Shown piece after piece: positions 33,221 to 43,714 of a stretch of DNA of 64,000 bases; positions within the stretch are counted from its first letter, which is position 1, and every line of letters starts with the position of its first letter. The DNA is from Lentibacter algarum (GTDB lineage Bacteria; Pseudomonadota; Alphaproteobacteria; Rhodobacterales; Rhodobacteraceae), in NCBI RefSeq assembly GCF_040580765.1, contig NZ_CP158687.1, positions 682,001 through 746,000 of the forward strand. Reading direction: 5' to 3'. A program made the translations under genes and the position numbers. The notes below the pieces were generated by a model that ran no database searches, was not told the origin of the DNA, and saw only the letters and a list, made by a program, of their open reading frames with translations.

Positions 33221-33297
33221 GGTCCTGTAGCTCAACTGGATAGAGCAGCTGACTTCTAATCAGCAGGTTGAGGGTTCGAGTCCTTCCGGGATCGCCA
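33221..33297 (+). tRNA. tRNA-Arg(UCU)
   Basis: A 77-base cloverleaf: acceptor GGTCCTG/CGGGATC (two wobble pairs), D-stem GCTC/GAGC, anticodon arm GCTGA-CTTCTAA-TCAGC with anticodon TCT, T-arm GAGGG-TTCGAGT-CCTTC, discriminator G and encoded CCA. It is the integration site of the following island: bases from 33252 onward are duplicated at 43666-43714. Confidence 0.95.
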
Positions 33298-33300
33298 TAT
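33252..33300 (+). repeat. attL: 49-bp direct repeat inside tRNA-Arg
   Basis: Covers the anticodon loop to CCA plus TAT of the intact tRNA gene; identical to 43666-43714. Confidence 0.92.
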
Positions 33301-33575: not shown

Positions 33576-34388
33576 ATGAGCCTTACCTGCAGCATCAGGC
33601 TGTTTGTTATTATCACGCTATCGATATTTTGCATTTCGGCAAGTGATCTTGCGGCGCAGCCAAAAGCGTACATACTCGTTGATGCTGATACCGGTGAGGT
33701 GTTGGCAGAGGATAGTGCTGATCTACGCTTGCATCCTGCTGGTTTGACAAAATTGATTACGCTATATGCGGCGTTTTATGCAGTGCAGCGTGGAGAGGTC
33801 GAGTTAGATGATATTATAACGATCTCTTCCCATGCCGCTAATGAGCCTCCTGTTGAGTTGGGTCTTAAGGCTGGCATGAAAATAAAATTTAGATATCTTT
33901 TGAGGGCCGCAGGAGTGCAGGGGGCGAACGATGCGGCAACCGCGATTGCTGAAGTAATAGCTGGATCTGAAAAATCTTTTTCAAGCGAGCTAAATGTACT
34001 TTCAACTGAGTTAGGACTAAGCCGGAGTGCGTGGAAAAATCCCCATGGTTTGACGGAGGCAGGGCACTTCTCAACAGCCCGAGACATAAGTGTTTTGATT
34101 ATGAAGCACAAAGAAAGCTTTCCTGAGTATTTTAATCTCTTCGGGAGAAGATCTGCTGACGCTGGTTTGCGAATGGTTGCCAATAGTGCAAGACGTTTGC
34201 TTGCAGGTGTAAGGGGTGTCGAAGCCGCACAATATGGCTATACCAGAGCTGCTGGACATAATGGTGCAGTATACGTCAGTCGTGAAGGCCGCAGTTTAGT
34301 GGCGGTAGTGTTTGGAGCTGCTACTACGTTAGATCTAATCGATGACTTGAACCAGGTTATAGAGCTGCGCCTTGCGGCGGAAATGTAA
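33576..34388 (+). CDS. Catalytically degenerate D-alanyl-D-alanine carboxypeptidase homologue (S11)
   Basis: The 270-residue protein has a signal peptide (FVIITLSIFCISASDLAA) and the low-molecular-weight PBP fold (KAYILVDADTGEVLAEDSAD, PHGLTEAGHFSTARDI). All three active-site motifs are lost: SxxK is GLTK (Gly56 replaces the nucleophilic Ser), SxN is GAN (116-118) and KTG is QYG (219-221). It therefore should not cleave peptidoglycan or bind beta-lactams covalently; it may bind wall peptides or another protein. It is first in the island and 31 bases before the DUF3127 gene, so it may be part of that operon. Confidence 0.8.
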   Translation: MSLTCSIRLFVIITLSIFCISASDLAAQPKAYILVDADTGEVLAEDSADLRLHPAGLTKLITLYAAFYAVQRGEVELDDIITISSHAANEPPVELGLKAGMKIKFRYLLRAAGVQGANDAATAIAEVIAGSEKSFSSELNVLSTELGLSRSAWKNPHGLTEAGHFSTARDISVLIMKHKESFPEYFNLFGRRSADAGLRMVANSARRLLAGVRGVEAAQYGYTRAAGHNGAVYVSREGRSLVAVVFGAATTLDLIDDLNQVIELRLAAEM

Positions 34389-34419: not shown

Positions 34420-34773
34420 ATGGAAATTGTTGGTAAAGTAATATGCTGTTTGCCAAGAAAAACAGGTAAGTCAGCTAGCGGCGAGTGGCAAAAAAAAGAT
34501 TATGTTCTTGAAACTGAAGGGCAGTACCCGAAAAAGATATGCTTCATGGTTTGGGGGGACAAAATTGACCAATTCGCAATCGTGGAAGGTGAACTTCTAA
34601 GTGTGTCAATCGACTTAGAGAGTAAGGAGTACAACGGTCGTTGGTATACAGATGTGAAAGCATGGAGGATATCTCGCGATCTAGGTGCACAGGGCGGTGT
34701 TAACTCAGTTCATCAAGCCGACGAGCTGGACGGTCCATTTGGTAGCCTCGATGGTGACACTATACCGTTCTGA
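34420..34773 (+). CDS. DUF3127 protein with SSB-like acidic tail
   Basis: The 117-residue protein (MEIVGKVICCLPRKTGKSAS, KKDYVLETEGQYPKKICF, WGDKIDQF, ESKEYNGRWYTDVKAW) matches DUF3127, an OB-fold-like family that I know mainly from Bacteroidetes. Its C-terminus is an acidic linker ending DGDTIPF, close to the DDDIPF tip by which SSB recruits RecQ, exonuclease I and others. It is followed on the same strand by a RecQ-type helicase, so a single-strand-binding partner role is a fair inference. Ribosome-binding site AGGGAAG. The family and AT-rich composition suggest horizontal transfer. Confidence 0.8.
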   Translation: MEIVGKVICCLPRKTGKSASGEWQKKDYVLETEGQYPKKICFMVWGDKIDQFAIVEGELLSVSIDLESKEYNGRWYTDVKAWRISRDLGAQGGVNSVHQADELDGPFGSLDGDTIPF

Positions 34774-35004
34774 GTAAATATTTTTGAAGCTTTGCTAAAT
34801 ATGATTTTTGAGTATTTCAACTATCAGGCAGTATGGGCATGTAGTAGCCATCACCTGGCTAATCCCATCCAGCACTGAGTTCTTAACTGAGGGGGCAGAA
34901 TGTCGCCTTTTTTGTTAACGAGAGAAGCACAAAGAAAATTTGGTTATTTATATAATCAAAATATCTAATTTCGTGACGCTGATTTGCATTGGGAGACTAA
35001 TTAA

Positions 35005-38000
35005 TTGCCTTCGTTTTGTGCTGGATATTTTCCAGGGGACCTTTTGTTTGAAGTTGATGGCTTGTTAAACACACCCAAACCAGTTCCGTCATTTGTTGCC
35101 AATACATTTTCTATTTTGACAAGGGGTGCACCCACTCGGCCTTCGCCCAAAATTTTAAAAAGCATGTTTCCGAGTTGCAAAGAACCTGAAACACAATGGG
35201 TTCAAATCAAAAATAAGCATCTTTGTTTAATCTCAAAAAATACACCGATGTGGTGCGACACAATCCTCGGTAGCGACGATGGTGACAATCCTGCGTTACA
35301 TTTTTTTGAACATGTCCTGGCGGCAGAACTCCCAAAATTTGCGTTTATTCGGAAACTTCTAATTCCGGAGTACCCACTTTTTGAAAAACTCAATGCGCCA
35401 ATGTCATTGAGGTCGGGAGTGAACGAAGAGAAAGTTGACTTCTACCTTCCACAGGCAAATCTCGTAATTGAGATAGACGGTTCCCAGCATTTAGATTTAG
35501 GGCAAAAGAGCAAAGATATTTCGCGTGATCGGTTTCTCAGAAGATTTGGGATAGAGACTTTAAGATTAACTACCCGCGAATTAAAAAAACCCAGTGCTGA
35601 GTTCTATAAATTTTTTGATCAATTAAACGCTCATTGCGAGTCTAGCTTTGCGTTAAGTTTATATAAGGACGCTCTAGATTCACAGCGCTTGCCTACGGAG
35701 CATAGTCTCACTGCATCTATACGCCTTCAAATAGCAATGATTTGTGCCATTTCTCATGGGCAGCTTAAGCTTGATGGATCGCCGTGGCATTTGGACGTCA
35801 CCCAAGATTTCGAATTAGACTTGTCCATGGATTGGGTTCAGGCTGCGCTTGAAGAGTTGTTTCATTGGTTCTCCTTGTTTGCTCGTTTGGCGCATTTGGA
35901 TTTTCAGCGGCCAAAAATCCGCCTTTCTGTTAACGGCCTTCGTTTTGATATTCGTTTGTTTGATCGTCCAGATGATCGCATTCTGCAGGAGAAAGTAATT
36001 ACTGTGCGAACTAGCCCAGTACAAAGCCTCCCTTTTATAGCGAATACCAAGCCAGATTTGAAAATTTTGGATATCCAAAATCTTGGAATTTCTAGCTTTG
36101 CTTCTTTAGACAAGCCTGATTACGCTTTGATCCAACCGAACTCTGAAGACTTGTCTGAGCTAACATTTCAGGTTTTTGGCCACGAGGCTTTTAGGCCAGG
36201 ACAGGAGGCGTTAATTTTGAACGCTCTCTCTGGTCAAAAATCACTAGGTCTTATGCCGACTGGCGGAGGTAAGTCTTTATGTTTTCAAGTACCAGCTTTG
36301 CTAAGGTCAGCGATAACTGTTGCAGTTGTGCCAATTAAAGCACTTGGCCGAGATCATTGTGCTGAACTTGATGCGGCGGGCTTTAGCGGGCGTTCCATAA
36401 ATATTGACAGTGATATGCCTAAATCCTTTCTCGAGGCTGTGGTGGCCCCTAGGATTGCTGAGGGTGCAATAAGATTTGTATTTGTTTCGCCTGAGAGGTT
36501 TCAGACTGATTTTTTTCGTAATTTGCTAACGAATCTTATTCAGACAGATCGTCTGGGAATGTTTGTAATTGATGAAGTTCATTGCATGAGTGAGTGGGGG
36601 CATGACTTCAGAACATCATATTTGACTCTTCCTGGCACGTTGAAAGAGATTGCTAAGGAAGTACCTGTTATGGGCTTAACCGCAACTGCAAGTGTTAATG
36701 TCCTACAAGATATACAGGCCGAGTTTGAAATACCTGACAGTCTGGTTGCTTACGAAATGCATCGTAGCCGAACCGAGTTAAACTTTTCAATTAAACAGGG
36801 CCCAGCATCTTTTTCCCAGGTGTCGGCTGCAGTGAAGCAGTTGATAGAACAGCGTTCAACTGATGAGCAAGAGCCCGTCCATATATTCACGCGATATGTT
36901 AATGGAAGGAGTGGTGTTCAGAGTGTCGCAGAGGCCCTCATTAGAGAGAATGCAGGTTTACGAGTAGGAATTTTTTCTGGAAGTGAGCCTGAAAAATTTG
37001 ATTTTTCACAAGCATTTACTTGGCTTCGATCACCGACAAAACTTCAATCCAGCACCTATGAAACCTATAAATCAGCAGTTCAAGGTTTATGGAAAGCAAA
37101 CGAACTCGATGTCGTAGTAACAACAAAAGCTTTTGGTATGGGCGTCAACAAGGCAAATGTGAGACATACTCTGCACGCAGGCATGCCAAGCTCAATGGAA
37201 GCTTTTTATCAGGAAGCTGGACGAGCTGGTCGTGATCGAATGAGTGCAACTTGCCACATGCTTGTTAAACCTGAGCGAGACGATGCGGCTCAAATATTCG
37301 AGAAGCTCCGCACGGATCTGACATTAGCTAACATCGAGAAATATTTAAAATATGATACCTCTGGTAAAGAACTATACCCTAATGATCGCGGTGATTTGCG
37401 AGCTCAGCTTTGGTTTTTATCGCAAGGTGTCATAGACAGTGACAAAGAAGTTGAGCTCGTTGTACACGCGATCAAGCTTTTAAGCTCTGATGAGCAGAAT
37501 GAGATTTTGCTAAAAGCTAGGGATTTTGAAACTTTACGCTCTGGTTCTGAGCGCCTTCAGTTAACCTTATATCGCATTTATCAGATGGGGTTGATTGGTC
37601 CTTGGACAGTCGTGGATTGGGGGCGTCCAGGCCAAGCAGTTCAGGCTTGTCTTGTAACAAAGACAAACGCTTGTTTCGAGGATGCATGTGCCTCTGTAAA
37701 GCAACGAATACAATCTATTGACGGCAAATCGGCAGAGATTTCCTCTATTGATAGATTGATAAAAGCTTCAGGTGAGTGTGGAGATTGGAGGGGCTTGAGC
37801 GTTGAGCTGATCCTATGGGTTCGTAGGAAACATTGGGATAGTCGCTTGCAGTCGACGTGGAATCTATATTCGAAAAGTGTGCAGTTTGACGCCAGTCAGG
37901 CGGCAACGTTTCGTGAAGAGTTGGAAGCATTTTTTAAAGTTGACAAAAATGTATTTGAACTTGCTGCCCTTCGTGACGCTTCAGTTGAAGATGCAGTATC

Positions 38001-38421
38001 TATTTTGAATGGACTTCTTAAAAATATGGTTAAAGGTGATGCTGAGTCCAAATCACAACAAAAAATGCTCTCGCTTCAAATTGCTCGATTGCTTGAGGGA
38101 ACACAGGATAGCAAAGGGCTGAATTTGGGTGCTGCAATCCTTCTGTTGCTCACCAATACTGAGGCGGCCCTGGAGGCAGAGAACCGTTTCAATTCTGCTG
38201 TAGGTGACGGTGCGCTTGAGTTTTGGAATAGCTTCGGTCAAGGTTTGCTTAATAAGGTTGCGTCATTAGATGATCATGCATGCGACATGATTGGGGAGTG
38301 GTTAATGCGATTTAGTCCCGGTAGGCGTGCTTTAATTGGCATTCAAAAGGGTATCCCTGCAAAGGCAGTAGAAGAGGCGCTATTTATAGATTTAGCCTCA
38401 GAACTTACAGCGATAATATGA
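35005..38421 (+). CDS. DUF559-type nuclease/RecQ-like helicase fusion
   Basis: An 1138-residue protein starting with TTG, set by GGGAG at 34991-34995 and an in-frame stop just upstream. Residues about 100-200 resemble a DUF559/Vsr-type PD-(D/E)xK nuclease: VDFYLP (Asp145), VIEIDGSQH (Glu156, Asp158, Gln161, His162), then RDRFLRRFGIETLRL. Residues about 385-760 are a RecQ-type SF2 helicase: FRPGQEALI, Walker A PTGGGKSLCF (about 417), DEVHCMSEWGHDFR (about 523), GLTATAS, TKAFGMGVNKANVRH and QEAGRAGRD. The last 370 or so residues are unassigned, with no recognisable RQC zinc cluster or HRDC. Predicted to unwind and cut DNA; a defence role is inferred from fusion and location. Confidence 0.82.
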   Translation: MPSFCAGYFPGDLLFEVDGLLNTPKPVPSFVANTFSILTRGAPTRPSPKILKSMFPSCKEPETQWVQIKNKHLCLISKNTPMWCDTILGSDDGDNPALHFFEHVLAAELPKFAFIRKLLIPEYPLFEKLNAPMSLRSGVNEEKVDFYLPQANLVIEIDGSQHLDLGQKSKDISRDRFLRRFGIETLRLTTRELKKPSAEFYKFFDQLNAHCESSFALSLYKDALDSQRLPTEHSLTASIRLQIAMICAISHGQLKLDGSPWHLDVTQDFELDLSMDWVQAALEELFHWFSLFARLAHLDFQRPKIRLSVNGLRFDIRLFDRPDDRILQEKVITVRTSPVQSLPFIANTKPDLKILDIQNLGISSFASLDKPDYALIQPNSEDLSELTFQVFGHEAFRPGQEALILNALSGQKSLGLMPTGGGKSLCFQVPALLRSAITVAVVPIKALGRDHCAELDAAGFSGRSINIDSDMPKSFLEAVVAPRIAEGAIRFVFVSPERFQTDFFRNLLTNLIQTDRLGMFVIDEVHCMSEWGHDFRTSYLTLPGTLKEIAKEVPVMGLTATASVNVLQDIQAEFEIPDSLVAYEMHRSRTELNFSIKQGPASFSQVSAAVKQLIEQRSTDEQEPVHIFTRYVNGRSGVQSVAEALIRENAGLRVGIFSGSEPEKFDFSQAFTWLRSPTKLQSSTYETYKSAVQGLWKANELDVVVTTKAFGMGVNKANVRHTLHAGMPSSMEAFYQEAGRAGRDRMSATCHMLVKPERDDAAQIFEKLRTDLTLANIEKYLKYDTSGKELYPNDRGDLRAQLWFLSQGVIDSDKEVELVVHAIKLLSSDEQNEILLKARDFETLRSGSERLQLTLYRIYQMGLIGPWTVVDWGRPGQAVQACLVTKTNACFEDACASVKQRIQSIDGKSAEISSIDRLIKASGECGDWRGLSVELILWVRRKHWDSRLQSTWNLYSKSVQFDASQAATFREELEAFFKVDKNVFELAALRDASVEDAVSILNGLLKNMVKGDAESKSQQKMLSLQIARLLEGTQDSKGLNLGAAILLLLTNTEAALEAENRFNSAVGDGALEFWNSFGQGLLNKVASLDDHACDMIGEWLMRFSPGRRALIGIQKGIPAKAVEEALFIDLASELTAII

Positions 38422-38428
38422 GGATCTA

Positions 38429-38983
38429 ATGTCTTTTGAAAAGGGCTTTGAGGCCATTGAAGAAATTACAAATTCAAGTGATAAACTACTGTCTTATGTG
38501 AACAAAGTGGAAGCACTAGAGGCTCGTCTCTCCAAGTCCGTGGATTTGATTTCACGACTTGAAAGTGCCCTTCAAAGTGCTGACAATGCGTTTAGCGGAG
38601 CAGAGAACGCGACGCTTGCGCTCAAGAAAAGCAGTGAAGACATAGAAGCGTTAGCGCAAAGTTTGCCAGATCACGCAGAAGCTGCAATCTTTCGATCTGA
38701 AGAACGGATATCAAAACATGTTGACCAGATGACTAAAGTCCTAAGCTCACTTCCAGAGTTATTGGAATCGGCTGTTGCAAAAAAGCTAGATGGAAAGTTC
38801 GAAGAGCTGGAAGTACGTGTTAGCAACTCTCTTCGAGAAGAGCTGAAAGATACTCGTGCAGCTTTACGTGATGCTATGGAAGTCAACGCTCGAAATCAGG
38901 TATCACATCTAGAAGCAATGTCTGAAAATTTAATATCCGAGATGCCCCGAGGTTTATTCGGACGCCCTAAAAAGCGCGATTGA
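38429..38983 (+). CDS. Coiled-coil protein downstream of the helicase
   Basis: The ATG lies seven bases after the helicase stop with GAGGATC as ribosome-binding site, so the two are in one operon. The 184-residue product is almost wholly helical with heptad-like spacing (KVEALEARLSKSVDLISRLE, LESAVAKKLDGKFEELEVRV) and ends in a basic tail (RGLFGRPKKRD). No enzymatic motif. It could be a structural or regulatory partner of the helicase. Confidence 0.7.
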   Translation: MSFEKGFEAIEEITNSSDKLLSYVNKVEALEARLSKSVDLISRLESALQSADNAFSGAENATLALKKSSEDIEALAQSLPDHAEAAIFRSEERISKHVDQMTKVLSSLPELLESAVAKKLDGKFEELEVRVSNSLREELKDTRAALRDAMEVNARNQVSHLEAMSENLISEMPRGLFGRPKKRD

Positions 38984-39771: not shown

Positions 39772-39813
39772 CGATGGTAATCCCCCCATTTTTAATGGGG
39801 TCCGCCTGTAGAA

Positions 39814-40614
39814 CTACGCGGCGATTTTCAGTTTCATAGCGGGTGTGATGCCGCCGATGGCCATGTTGGGCCGGTCGTTGTTGTAAGTCCAGAGCCATTC
39901 GGTTGCTTGTTCTTGGGCCTCCTCGATAGTTTCAAAGATGTTCTGATCCAGCCATTCGTGGCGCACCGTGCGATTGTAGCGCTCGATGTAGGCGTTCTGT
40001 TGCGGCTTTCCTGGCTGGATGTATTCAATGTGAATGCCACGCGTCTCAGCCCATGATTTCAGCAGCCCACTGACATATTCTGGGCCGTTATCAACGCGGA
40101 TTACCTCCGGCGCGCCGCGCCATTCGATGATCTGGTTCAGGCTGCGCACAACACGCACGGCGGGTAGCGAGAAGTCCACTTCAATGCCCAGGCCCTCTCG
40201 GTTGTAATCATCCAACACATTGAGGGTCCGGAACTTTCGCCCATCCGCCAGCTGATCCTGCATAAAGTCCATCGACCATGTGTGGTTGGGGGCTTCCGGC
40301 ACTGCCAGTTCATCCGGCTTGGGCCGTTTCAGCCGCTTACGCGGCCTGATACGCAGGTTCAGCTCCAACTCGCAGTAGATCCGGTACACGCGCTTGTGGT
40401 TCCATTCATAGCCTTTGACGTTGCGTAGATACAAAAAACACAACCCAAAGCCCCACGTCTTGCGATTGGCCGTCAGGCGTACCAACCAATCCGCGATCTC
40501 AGCATTCTCATCGTCAAACTTGCGCTCATAACGATAGCACGTTTCGCTGATCTCAAAGGCGCGGCACGCCAGCGCGATGCTGACCTGTTTCGTTCTCACC
40601 GCGTTTACGGCCAT
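39814..40614 (-). CDS. IS3-family transposase OrfB (DDE catalytic part)
   Basis: 266 residues counted from its first Met; the functional product is probably the OrfAB fusion made by -1 frameshifting on the T7 run at 40642-40648 (A7 in the mRNA), after which the frame reads [20 protein letters not shown] residues: [20 protein letters not shown] and [16 protein letters not shown]. Both ORFs appear intact, so the element may be active. Confidence 0.92.
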
Positions 40615-40634
40615 CTCGCGTCGCTGAGACGGCC

Positions 40635-40904
40635 TTACCGCTTTTTTTCAAGGGCTTCCTTCAGCAGATCATTCTGCATGCTCATCTCAGCATACATCCG
40701 CTTCAGACGACGGTTCTCAGCCTCCATCGCCTTCATTTGCGATACCATCGAAGCATCCATGCCGCCGAACTTCGCACGCCATTTGTAAAAACTCGCACTG
40801 CTCATCCCATGTTCACGGCACAGCTCAGAGACAGGCACACCGCTCTCCGCTTGCTTCAAAATACCCATGATCTGCGCGTCGCTAAATCGTCCGTTCTTCA
40901 TCAA
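40635..40904 (-). CDS. IS3-family transposase OrfA (HTH/leucine-zipper part)
   Basis: 89 residues: HTH ([20 protein letters not shown], then [15 protein letters not shown]) followed by a leucine-zipper-like segment ([19 protein letters not shown]). Ends EALEKKR just after the slippery A7 sequence that allows OrfAB synthesis. Confidence 0.92.
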
Positions 40905-40972
40905 AAATCTCCTCAGATATCATGCCGAGAAAATTCTACTGTTGAACACCACTAATTTGCGGGGGGATTACC

Positions 40973-41781: not shown

Positions 41782-42375
41782 CTATCTCTTAATTTCTTGA
41801 TAAAGCTTAATTAAATTTCTTGCTGCTTGTTTTTTGTTTGGCCAATTGGAGTGCGCATTATAATAAAAATCAGCTGTTTGCATCGCAAATTTCGACTTGT
41901 TTGAGCGCGCGAAGTCTTTGTTTAGCTGTATAATTGTACTTAGTTTCAAGCCTGAACTGCGGGCAACAGTTTTTTCCGCATCGCTTGTTGTCAAACCGGC
42001 TGTTTTGAGTAGTTTTGTTGCCACATGCAGTAATGCATAATGTTCGTTGGTCGCTATTCTCAATACGCCTGTATTCGCCTCCGAGGTGGGCTTGCAAAAA
42101 TATTTTGGGTTAGCGCCTCTAGATAAGTCGGTCAGGTCATCGACAAGCAGTTGTATGATTTTACTATCCCAGGCTGGAAATTGTGTGCGCGCGATGTGAG
42201 ATAGCGTTAACAATAGGCCTGATATGTCTTCGATTAGCTCTTGGCTTGGCAGCGTTTCTCCGCGCCTGATACTGTCAACTCTGTATTCAATCGCTTGCGA
42301 CCACATGTCTAAAAGAGATTCGAGTGCATGCAATTGCTGGGGCTCTGGAATTAGTTCTTCATCTTGTGATTTCAT
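41782..42375 (-). CDS. Island protein of unknown function
   Basis: A 197-residue, mainly helical soluble protein overlapping the integrase 3' end by 17 bases, thus translationally coupled to it. No family recognised. The C-terminal part (YYNAHSNWPNKKQAARNLIK) looks like a short HTH-like helical segment. Codon use is AT-rich like the rest of the island. Confidence 0.65.
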   Translation of the reverse strand: MKSQDEELIPEPQQLHALESLLDMWSQAIEYRVDSIRRGETLPSQELIEDISGLLLTLSHIARTQFPAWDSKIIQLLVDDLTDLSRGANPKYFCKPTSEANTGVLRIATNEHYALLHVATKLLKTAGLTTSDAEKTVARSSGLKLSTIIQLNKDFARSNKSKFAMQTADFYYNAHSNWPNKKQAARNLIKLYQEIKR

Positions 42376-43516
42376 CTAATCGATCCGCCCATGTTTGAAG
42401 AGCTTTCTGTTTTTCATCGAGGTAGGTGTAGCGATCGTAGACTGCGGTCACTCCTGTGTCTTTATGGTTGAGCACAAGTTTTATTGTGAAGCGATCATAA
42501 CCAAGTTTTCCAAGGTTAGTTGCTACCGAGGCGCGCAGGTCATGAAGCCGCCAATCAGTTACGCCAGAAAAACGATCTAATTGTACTTTGGCTTTAGAGA
42601 AGCCATTGAGTGGGGCATCACCAATACGCCCGCTTGATAATAGATATTCGCCTTCGTTTTTTAGTAGCTCGCTAATTATTGCTTTCGCCTGGCGAGGTAG
42701 TGCTAACACATTTTCACGTTTATTTTTTGTATCGTTCGAAGACAAAAACCAAAGGTCGCCCTCAATGAGTGAGCGCCTCATAGAGGCGGTTTCCATCTCT
42801 CGCTGGCCGCACAGCAGCGAGAGCCTCAGCCACGCCTTGTAAGGTGGGCTCAGCGCTTCGGATGCATGCCATATAGCTTTGATTTCATCATCGCTTAAGA
42901 CGCGATCACGGCGCTTTTCGGAGAATGGTTTTTTGATGTGGTCGGCTGGGGAGTGATCAATGTAATCTCGCTCAACGAGCCAGCCGAAAAATTTCCGCAT
43001 ATGTGCTAAGGCTCTGTTTGCACTAGGACCCTTGTTGTCCTTAATAAGCTGGTCGAGAATCGCGTGGATTTCTCCTCTTTTTACCGATGCTACAGGCCTT
43101 GTCCCTAATGCCGCCACTAAGTACAAACGCAGATTGCTCTCTGCTTGCCGCCAGCTTTTATTCTTGGGCTTTGCATAACGCTCTATAAATTGTGTTGCCA
43201 TTTCACTGACAGTGCGCTCTCTCTGCAACCTCTCATCAGCTTTGATGTGTCTTGGGTCAGTGCCCGCTGCGACCAGCCTTCTGAGCTCTTCAACGCGTCC
43301 TCTAACATCTCCAAGAGAGATGTCTGGGTAAGGGCCAAGTGTTACTCGGCCAGTCTTAACCCCAAGTCGGAAGGTATAACTGAAGGATTTGACACCCTTC
43401 TTTGTGACTTTGAGGCTGAGCCCTTTGCAGCTTATGTCGCCGAAGTGCTGCTCTTGTTCGGGCTTATGTTTCAAAGCCTTTAGCCATTGGTCGGTGAATT
43501 TGAGTTTTTTGGTCAT
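42359..43516 (-). CDS. P4-type tyrosine integrase
   Basis: 385 residues: N-terminal DUF4102 arm-binding domain (LSLKVTKKGVKSFSYTFRLG), SAM-like core-binding domain and catalytic domain with Arg in CGQREMETASMRR, HDLRASVATNLGKLG (HxxR), the second His in LNHKD and the nucleophile Tyr in YDRYTYLDEKQ. It mediates recombination at the tRNA-Arg 3' end. It lies 150 bases from attR with an 18-bp repeat directly before its start. Confidence 0.95.
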   Translation of the reverse strand: MTKKLKFTDQWLKALKHKPEQEQHFGDISCKGLSLKVTKKGVKSFSYTFRLGVKTGRVTLGPYPDISLGDVRGRVEELRRLVAAGTDPRHIKADERLQRERTVSEMATQFIERYAKPKNKSWRQAESNLRLYLVAALGTRPVASVKRGEIHAILDQLIKDNKGPSANRALAHMRKFFGWLVERDYIDHSPADHIKKPFSEKRRDRVLSDDEIKAIWHASEALSPPYKAWLRLSLLCGQREMETASMRRSLIEGDLWFLSSNDTKNKRENVLALPRQAKAIISELLKNEGEYLLSSGRIGDAPLNGFSKAKVQLDRFSGVTDWRLHDLRASVATNLGKLGYDRFTIKLVLNHKDTGVTAVYDRYTYLDEKQKALQTWADRLDEITR

Positions 43517-43535: not shown

Positions 43536-43665
43536 CATATTTGATGTGCTGGTATGTAATCTATGATCCCATATGGCTTGGCTCAAGTCTATAAGTTCTT
43601 TTTTTTATAGATTTTATGTGGTCTCATGTTTGGAGTGATCTTGAGTGATGTGATTGGAGCGACTA

Positions 43666-43714
43666 ACTTCTAATCAGCAGGTTGAGGGTTCGAGTCCTTC
43701 CGGGATCGCCATAT
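43666..43714 (+). repeat. attR: tRNA-Arg 3' duplicate
   Basis: 49 bp identical to 33252-33300. Only the 3' part of the tRNA is here; the upstream bases do not form the rest of a cloverleaf, so this is not a second tRNA gene. Confidence 0.92.

Follow-up and report, generated by a model that had tools for sequence, protein, structure and literature searches.

A DUF559-RecQ helicase-nuclease with a small coiled-coil partner, a candidate anti-phage module on an integrative element of Lentibacter algarum

The helicase-nuclease and its coiled-coil partner

The window, the 64,000-nucleotide stretch of Lentibacter algarum DNA analysed here (positions 682,001 to 746,000 of contig NZ_CP158687.1, assembly GCF_040580765.1), contains a 10.4-kb integrative element, which is inserted in a tRNA-Arg gene and carries a candidate anti-phage module of two adjacent genes. 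The larger gene (35005..38421, plus strand) encodes a protein of 1138 amino acids, in which a DUF559 nuclease is fused to a RecQ core helicase and a long tail, as judged from the open reading frame (ORF), Pfam, PADLOC, NCBIfam and the family tree; the smaller one (38429..38983, plus strand) encodes a coiled-coil protein of 184 amino acids. The original prediction, made from the letters of this DNA, had described a three-gene module with an additional DUF3127 gene upstream, and the three plus-strand genes were confirmed at 34420-34773, 35005-38421 and 38429-38983. The reading frame of the large protein opens with a TTG start codon right behind an in-frame TAA, and GGGAG precedes this start. The family to which the pair belongs is defined by the helicase signature E-W-G-H-[DN]-F-R-x-[ST]-Y, DUF559, a family tail and an adjacent gene for a small coiled coil, all of which are found in the window.

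Pfam places DUF559 at residues 144-195 of the large protein, and the DUF559/Vsr-like nuclease domain (residues 145-195, 35437..35589, plus strand; Pfam and PDB profile match) contains D145, E156, D158 and Q161-H162, as had been claimed. D145, E156, D158 and H162 are identical in all 19 family rows that have the DUF559 domain, 21 rows being aligned, and the Walker lysine K423 of the helicase is kept in 20 of the 21, the exception (L084) beginning at a contig end; these counts cover the branch of the window, with a Haliscomenobacter-like branch, of which one protein was aligned separately, lying outside them. DUF559 was matched at E<=0.1 in 17/17 family members scanned, and a family profile of the nuclease region, compared with PDB, gives a match to the endonuclease-like chain 3hrl (E=1.8e-9) and a weak one to PvuRts1I.

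The helicase had been called a complete RecQ-type enzyme. Its two lobes are present, with DEAD plus Helicase_C matched by Pfam at residues 397-744 (36193..37236, plus strand; K423, D523-E524-H526, Q736, R740 and R743; recQ_fam over cut-off), but the Zn-binding, RQC and HRDC regions are missing from the Pfam matches at E<=1. Consistently, the RecQ-family model TIGR00614 scores 252.5 bits against a cut-off of 219.8, whereas the equivalog for RecQ sensu stricto, TIGR01389, stays at 258.7 bits against 640.2. The tail (residues 760-1138, 37282..38418, plus strand), which had been described as 370 residues without assignment, can be aligned throughout the family and kept that status when its profile was compared with Pfam and PDB: Pfam offered no relative, and the top PDB match (E=0.0047 over 67 positions) was taken as chance.

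The partner gene starts seven bases downstream of the helicase-nuclease gene, as the original prediction had it, and this pairing turned out to be conserved. Among 38 loci examined, three are cut off by the contig end, and the tree assigns another (L099) to ordinary RecQ; each of the 34 that are left, all with a visible downstream side and the window included, has a small ORF immediately after the helicase gene, with spacings from a 29-base overlap to a 12-base gap. Two of these loci (L030 and L031) are near-copies with shared partner and DprA proteins, and the 34 therefore correspond to about 32 independent ones. The summed content of P, G, C and W is at most 0.076 in 34/34 partners, and heptad-like periodicity, which was computed on partners only, exceeds 95% of shuffles in 33 of them. 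On hydropathy alone (19-residue mean >=1.9), 25 of the 30 complete partners have a hydrophobic C-terminal stretch. The five without it are those of the window, of genome G019, which belongs to the same taxonomic family as the window, of Erwinia, of Phycisphaerales and of a viral contig (L220). The partners of the window, G019 and Erwinia have in common the motif ELKDTR and a C-terminal P-x-x-LFGR, which reads P-R-G-L-F-G-R in the window, where no hydrophobic helix is present. PADLOC gave a weak coiled-coil match of the window partner to ZorA1 (20.1 bits).

As a control, 54 loci classed as ordinary RecQ were taken from the same scan, 38 of which have a visible downstream side and 16 do not. An adjacent ORF with a hydrophobic C-terminal tail was found in none of the 34 judgeable loci (13 without an adjacent ORF, 21 with a complete one). 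This class included L117, which the tree places inside the family, and L105 and L130, which it places next to it; L117 has an adjacent ORF of 178 amino acids that is low in P, G, C and W and lacks a hydrophobic tail, and at L105 and L130 the downstream side, and hence a partner gene, is not visible. Next to L131, which the tree groups with ordinary RecQ, lies an ORF of 203 amino acids, likewise without a hydrophobic tail.

Distribution and phylogeny of the family

Family loci occur in several phyla, mostly at 22-30% identity. Relatives are found on plasmids of E. coli, Klebsiella, Raoultella and Haliscomenobacter, and the closer ones include those of G019 (50% identity) and Erwinia (51% identity), the latter detected through a DNA pattern built on the helicase signature. 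The same pattern revealed relatives in an alphaproteobacterium, Bacteroidota, Balneolaceae, Chloroherpeton, Clostridium, a second Bacillota genome, Gastranaerophilales, an actinobacterium and Phycisphaerales; some of the phylum names are those to which we take these relatives to belong. Of 147 genomes, only G000 and G019 gave full-length matches, and 7 of 5426 E. coli genomes have a copy at high DNA identity, four of the places being on plasmids and three copies chromosomal. The genome scan covers 80 loci out of at least 119 matched stretches, and therefore no prevalence is claimed. A profile of the N-terminal region, run on 385 genomes of the class and 398 of the phylum, mostly matched the DUF559 stretch alone among the matches listed, the longest of these besides the window covering 227 of 377 positions (G391).

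When the helicase region was used for a 60-tip tree, the family together with L105 and L130 formed one clade of 33 tips with a support of 1.0, apart from ordinary RecQ; the tree omits L129, L084 and L156, as well as 34 of the loci classed as ordinary (54 less those reassigned to the family). The proteins of the window, G019 and Erwinia cluster with a support of 0.999 despite the probably large distance of Erwinia from the other two, which points to lateral transfer. Proteins L034-L039 of related genomes were tried as members and rejected: these RecQ-like proteins of approximately 1.5 to 1.8 thousand amino acids have an ordinary WGHDFRPDY-type signature, and the four of six that were placed in the tree fall outside the family. 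Their lengths span about 1460-1840 amino acids, and on inspection by eye the N-terminus looks similar to a DEDD exonuclease.

Scans of viral contigs with peptide patterns from two family alignments gave 33 and 57 pattern matches, none of which was confirmed. The DNA pattern led to three viral contigs, whose ORFs (L081, L082 and L083) all score as members. L081/L220 lies on a 206-kb IMG/VR contig classed as viral, where the gene of this DUF559-RecQ member overlaps an ORF of 152 amino acids; this is possibly a phage-borne copy. In a relative from Bacillota (L101/L219), a topoisomerase-type zinc ribbon seems to precede DUF559, the N-terminus reading CPQCGSPM by eye; Zn_ribbon_Top1 was matched in 1/17 N-terminal rows.

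Defence genes next to the family

Several family loci lie beside known defence genes. The Chryseobacterium copy adjoins Zorya genes, that of Bacteroidales GmrSD and Tiamat, that of Runella type I restriction and SoFic, and that of Flavobacteriales AriA/AriB (PARIS) and PDC-M12. A retron-like reverse transcriptase is encoded immediately downstream in G019, and of the three chromosomal E. coli copies, the two examined both sit in islands that include type I restriction-modification (RM), in one case together with MZA.

The neighbourhood was compared with that of ordinary RecQ genes using ORFs of at least 150 amino acids within 6 kb, with eight partner ORFs removed from the family set beforehand. 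At E<=1e-20 in PADLOC, 73 ORFs from 11 loci around the family match 69 models, the 25 of these that were listed including Tiamat, ZorB, ZorD, type I RM, AriB and PDC-M12, among others; around ordinary RecQ genes, 96 ORFs from 22 loci match 20 models, 18 of which are DpdE, ZorD or DrmD. There are thus more kinds of PADLOC models around the family than around ordinary RecQ genes, in hand-chosen sets of 11 long-context family loci and 22 ordinary loci no longer than 8 kb, the control flanks being shorter.

Versions with HAD, PRTase-like and DprA components

Some relatives are larger. In a plasmid-encoded E. coli protein of 1558 amino acids, a HAD domain and a PRTase-like region precede DUF559-RecQ, and the gene of this protein lies between a DprA gene upstream and the coiled-coil gene downstream. 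PADLOC matches this DprA to ShosA (227 bits) and, weakly, the PRTase-like region to ShosT (29.6 bits); Pfam finds no PRTase in the E. coli protein at E<=0.01 and matches PRTase in 1/17 N-terminal family rows. In Chloroherpeton, a comparable long form is accompanied by the end of a DprA gene. With a single DprA query, DprA was detected in L205 and the E. coli loci; a further 18 family loci, short ones among them, gave no match. According to the available part of PMC9122126, a pair of DprA and PRTase protects against T7 and lambda.

The integrative element and its other genes

The proposal that the genes lie on an island in a tRNA gene was borne out, since direct repeats are present and relatives carry the site without the element. 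The ends are marked by 58-bp direct repeats that are 95% identical: the left attachment repeat (33243..33300, plus strand) overlaps tRNA-Arg(tct) at 33221-33297, and the right one lies at 43657..43714 (plus strand). A tyrosine integrase recognised by Pfam is encoded near the far end (42359..43516, minus strand). Both flanks were searched in six other genomes of the genus (G001-G006). The site is empty in G001, where one tRNA-Arg runs directly into the right-hand flank, and in G003 and G005, where the two are 12-17 bases apart; other genes fill approximately 1 kb in G002 and approximately 7.5 and 5.3 kb in G004 and G006, respectively. As occupancy differs among these genomes, the site is a variable insertion spot. 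The genes at this site in G004 resemble a peptide-transporter operon by eye.

The DUF3127 gene (34420..34773, plus strand) sits 231 bp upstream of the helicase gene. Its predicted resemblance to single-stranded DNA (ssDNA)-binding proteins was upheld (Pfam DUF3127, 112 bits; PHROG single-strand-binding, 64 bits), whereas its place in a three-gene module was not: the neighbourhood survey retained the helicase-nuclease and coiled-coil pair, and a tblastn search of 23 family loci gave no relative of the DUF3127 protein, the best E value being 0.61. Because of this absence and the 231-bp distance, DUF3127 was rejected as a module part and looks like a passenger, by comparison of the loci. The first cargo gene beside the tRNA encodes a peptidase S11 similar to D-Ala-D-Ala carboxypeptidases (33576-34388), an odd passenger for such an element. 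Further downstream, an IS3-type insertion (39776-40972) with two transposase-like ORFs, perfect inverted repeats of 12 bp and CGAT flanking both sides interrupts what appears to be a single DUF3631 gene of the element. A methylase was not found among the element proteins scanned.

Comparison with named systems

The nearest label in PADLOC is DpdF of the Dpd (7-deazaguanine) system: model PDLC02868, which bears this name, covers residues 63-1138 of the window protein with 1158 bits, and both share a RecQ-like helicase core. The curated NCBIfam equivalog for DpdF (NF041063), however, reaches 174.2 bits against a cut-off of 550, with its best stretch in the helicase, and no Dpd-like gene, DpdA or other, was found by Pfam among eight element proteins scanned, a search that did not extend to the insertion sequence ORFs, one ORF of 64 amino acids and the rest of the genome. 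Membership in the Dpd system was rejected on these two grounds. As the curated model is missed by far, the label of PDLC02868 looks wrong; the model probably describes the DUF559-RecQ family rather than DpdF and seems to need relabelling. The suggestion that the genes are no recognised named system thus holds in that no description was found, and needs amending in that PADLOC does hold a full-length model.

PsyrTA/RqlHI is likewise a small operon, of the defence or toxin-antitoxin kind, with a gene for a RecQ-like helicase; PsyrT matches the window helicase with 200 bits in PADLOC, and some family relatives have DprA and a PRTase-like region. The window protein differs in its DUF559 nuclease, its tail and its coiled-coil partner; PRTase gave no match at E<=1 in it, and its neighbours are DUF3127 and the coiled coil rather than a DprA-like protein. 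ShosTA is approached by the E. coli-type relatives with their ShosA-like DprA and weakly ShosT-like region, but in these relatives a single protein combines the PRTase-like region with HAD, DUF559 and RecQ, and the coiled-coil gene comes next; the window has neither DprA nor PRTase. Hachiman (HamAB) combines a nuclease and a helicase, according to the available part of PMC12278908; in the window protein, these two are fused and the second gene encodes a coiled coil, and no separate HamA nuclease family is among the Pfam and PADLOC matches listed for the element proteins. Zorya, which adjoins one family member, also joins a membrane component to a helicase or nuclease effector, but instead of a ZorA/ZorB motor the family has just one small partner protein, which usually carries a single hydrophobic helix at its C-terminus, and ZorA and ZorB genes are not among the element proteins scanned. 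No description of a helicase-nuclease and coiled-coil pair was found among the literature matches listed, a search outside which subscription papers and supplements lie; RecQ, DprA and DUF559 are absent from the main text of the DefensePredictor paper (PMC13092281), and RecQ and DpdF from that of the YprA paper (PMC12458937).

Proposed function and alternative explanations

As the pair co-occurs in many kinds of bacteria, often beside anti-virus genes, it probably constitutes an undescribed anti-virus defence. We lean, with modest confidence, towards the genes at 35005-38421 and 38429-38983 being an anti-phage (anti-invader DNA) module whose enzyme would be placed by its partner. The sequences show that the pair is conserved, that the catalytic residues are intact, that most partners end in a hydrophobic helix and that the setting is one of mobile elements and defence islands; we infer anti-phage activity, nuclease activity, binding of the two proteins, membrane placement and the way in which self DNA is spared. 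In the proposed mechanism, the large protein would load on invading DNA, along which the RecQ motor would travel and unwind it, and the fused DUF559 nuclease would cut the unwound DNA. The coiled-coil partner would bind the large protein and set its location. In most of the family, the partner resembles a membrane protein with a tail anchor, which would station the enzyme at the inner membrane, the point of DNA entry; in the clade of the window, a soluble end with a basic, conserved P-x-x-LFGR tail appears to take the place of the membrane-type helix. Self DNA might, as a guess, be spared through recognition of DNA ends, gaps or forks.

Several points weigh against a defence module of this kind. 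No family member with demonstrated activity was found. Named defence systems are present at 4 of 12 long-context loci and none is named at the other eight, the PADLOC neighbour counts refer to models and not to proteins, and some of the matched models (dGTPase, reverse transcriptase, SNF2-type) are not specific to defence. The node of the family without L105 and L130 has a support of 0.305, which becomes 0.743 when the viral L081 is left out as well. A natural member, L124, lacks the DUF559 domain and keeps the helicase, the tail and a membrane-type partner. Finally, the soluble and anchored partners are treated as equivalent because of their same gene position, and an hhalign result of 46.6% over 17 columns does not demonstrate homology.

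The long relatives suggest another possibility, namely abortive infection or a toxin-antitoxin function, in which the helicase-nuclease, or the fused PRTase-like region, would harm host DNA when triggered and would be restrained by the coiled coil or DprA. The extended N-termini with HAD and PRTase-like region and the upstream DprA of the E. coli-type and Chloroherpeton loci, together with the matches to ShosA and ShosT, are in line with it, and RqlH (RecQ-PRTase) and its DprA-domain partner RqlI behave like toxin and antitoxin in the available part of PMC4670107. Since Pfam detects neither PRTase nor DprA in the window, both are rare in the family as surveyed above, and a membrane-type coiled coil would be atypical for an antitoxin, this explanation is considered unlikely. 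DprA and PRTase proteins have ties to DNA uptake, according to the parts available of PMC4670107 and PMC5512222, and several copies are plasmid-borne, which would fit the exclusion of plasmids or transforming DNA instead of phages; the named neighbours, however, are mostly anti-phage systems, and we regard this function as improbable.

An equally small chance is given to DNA repair or maintenance for the mobile element itself. RecQ helicases are repair enzymes, and the element carries the ssDNA-binding-like DUF3127 gene and the DUF3631 gene, but DUF3127 is not shared by the family, whose members occur in varied settings on chromosomes and plasmids with the coiled-coil gene as the sole constant neighbour. 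That the large protein is DpdF, as its nearly full-length match to PDLC02868 might suggest, was already disfavoured by the NCBIfam score and the lack of a Dpd partner among the scanned proteins, and we consider it very improbable.

Building on the anti-phage module, a wider proposal is put forward tentatively, at less than even confidence: the family may represent a widespread, unnamed class of immune systems. In these, a tail-anchored coiled coil would keep the RecQ helicase-nuclease at the inner membrane, and DNA would be unwound and cut there as it comes in. The clade of the window would have lost the membrane helix in favour of an LFGR-tailed soluble coiled coil, and the versions with DprA and HAD-PRTase-like components would join ShosTA and PsyrTA in one modular superfamily.

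Defence by helicase-nucleases is a known theme; the DUF559-RecQ family, however, has no name in the sources searched and is concealed in PADLOC by an apparently wrong label. As a compact two-gene system with relatives on plasmids and chromosomes of E. coli, it makes the role of a membrane anchor directly testable, and the DprA and PRTase add-ons in helicase defence could likewise be tested directly in this family.

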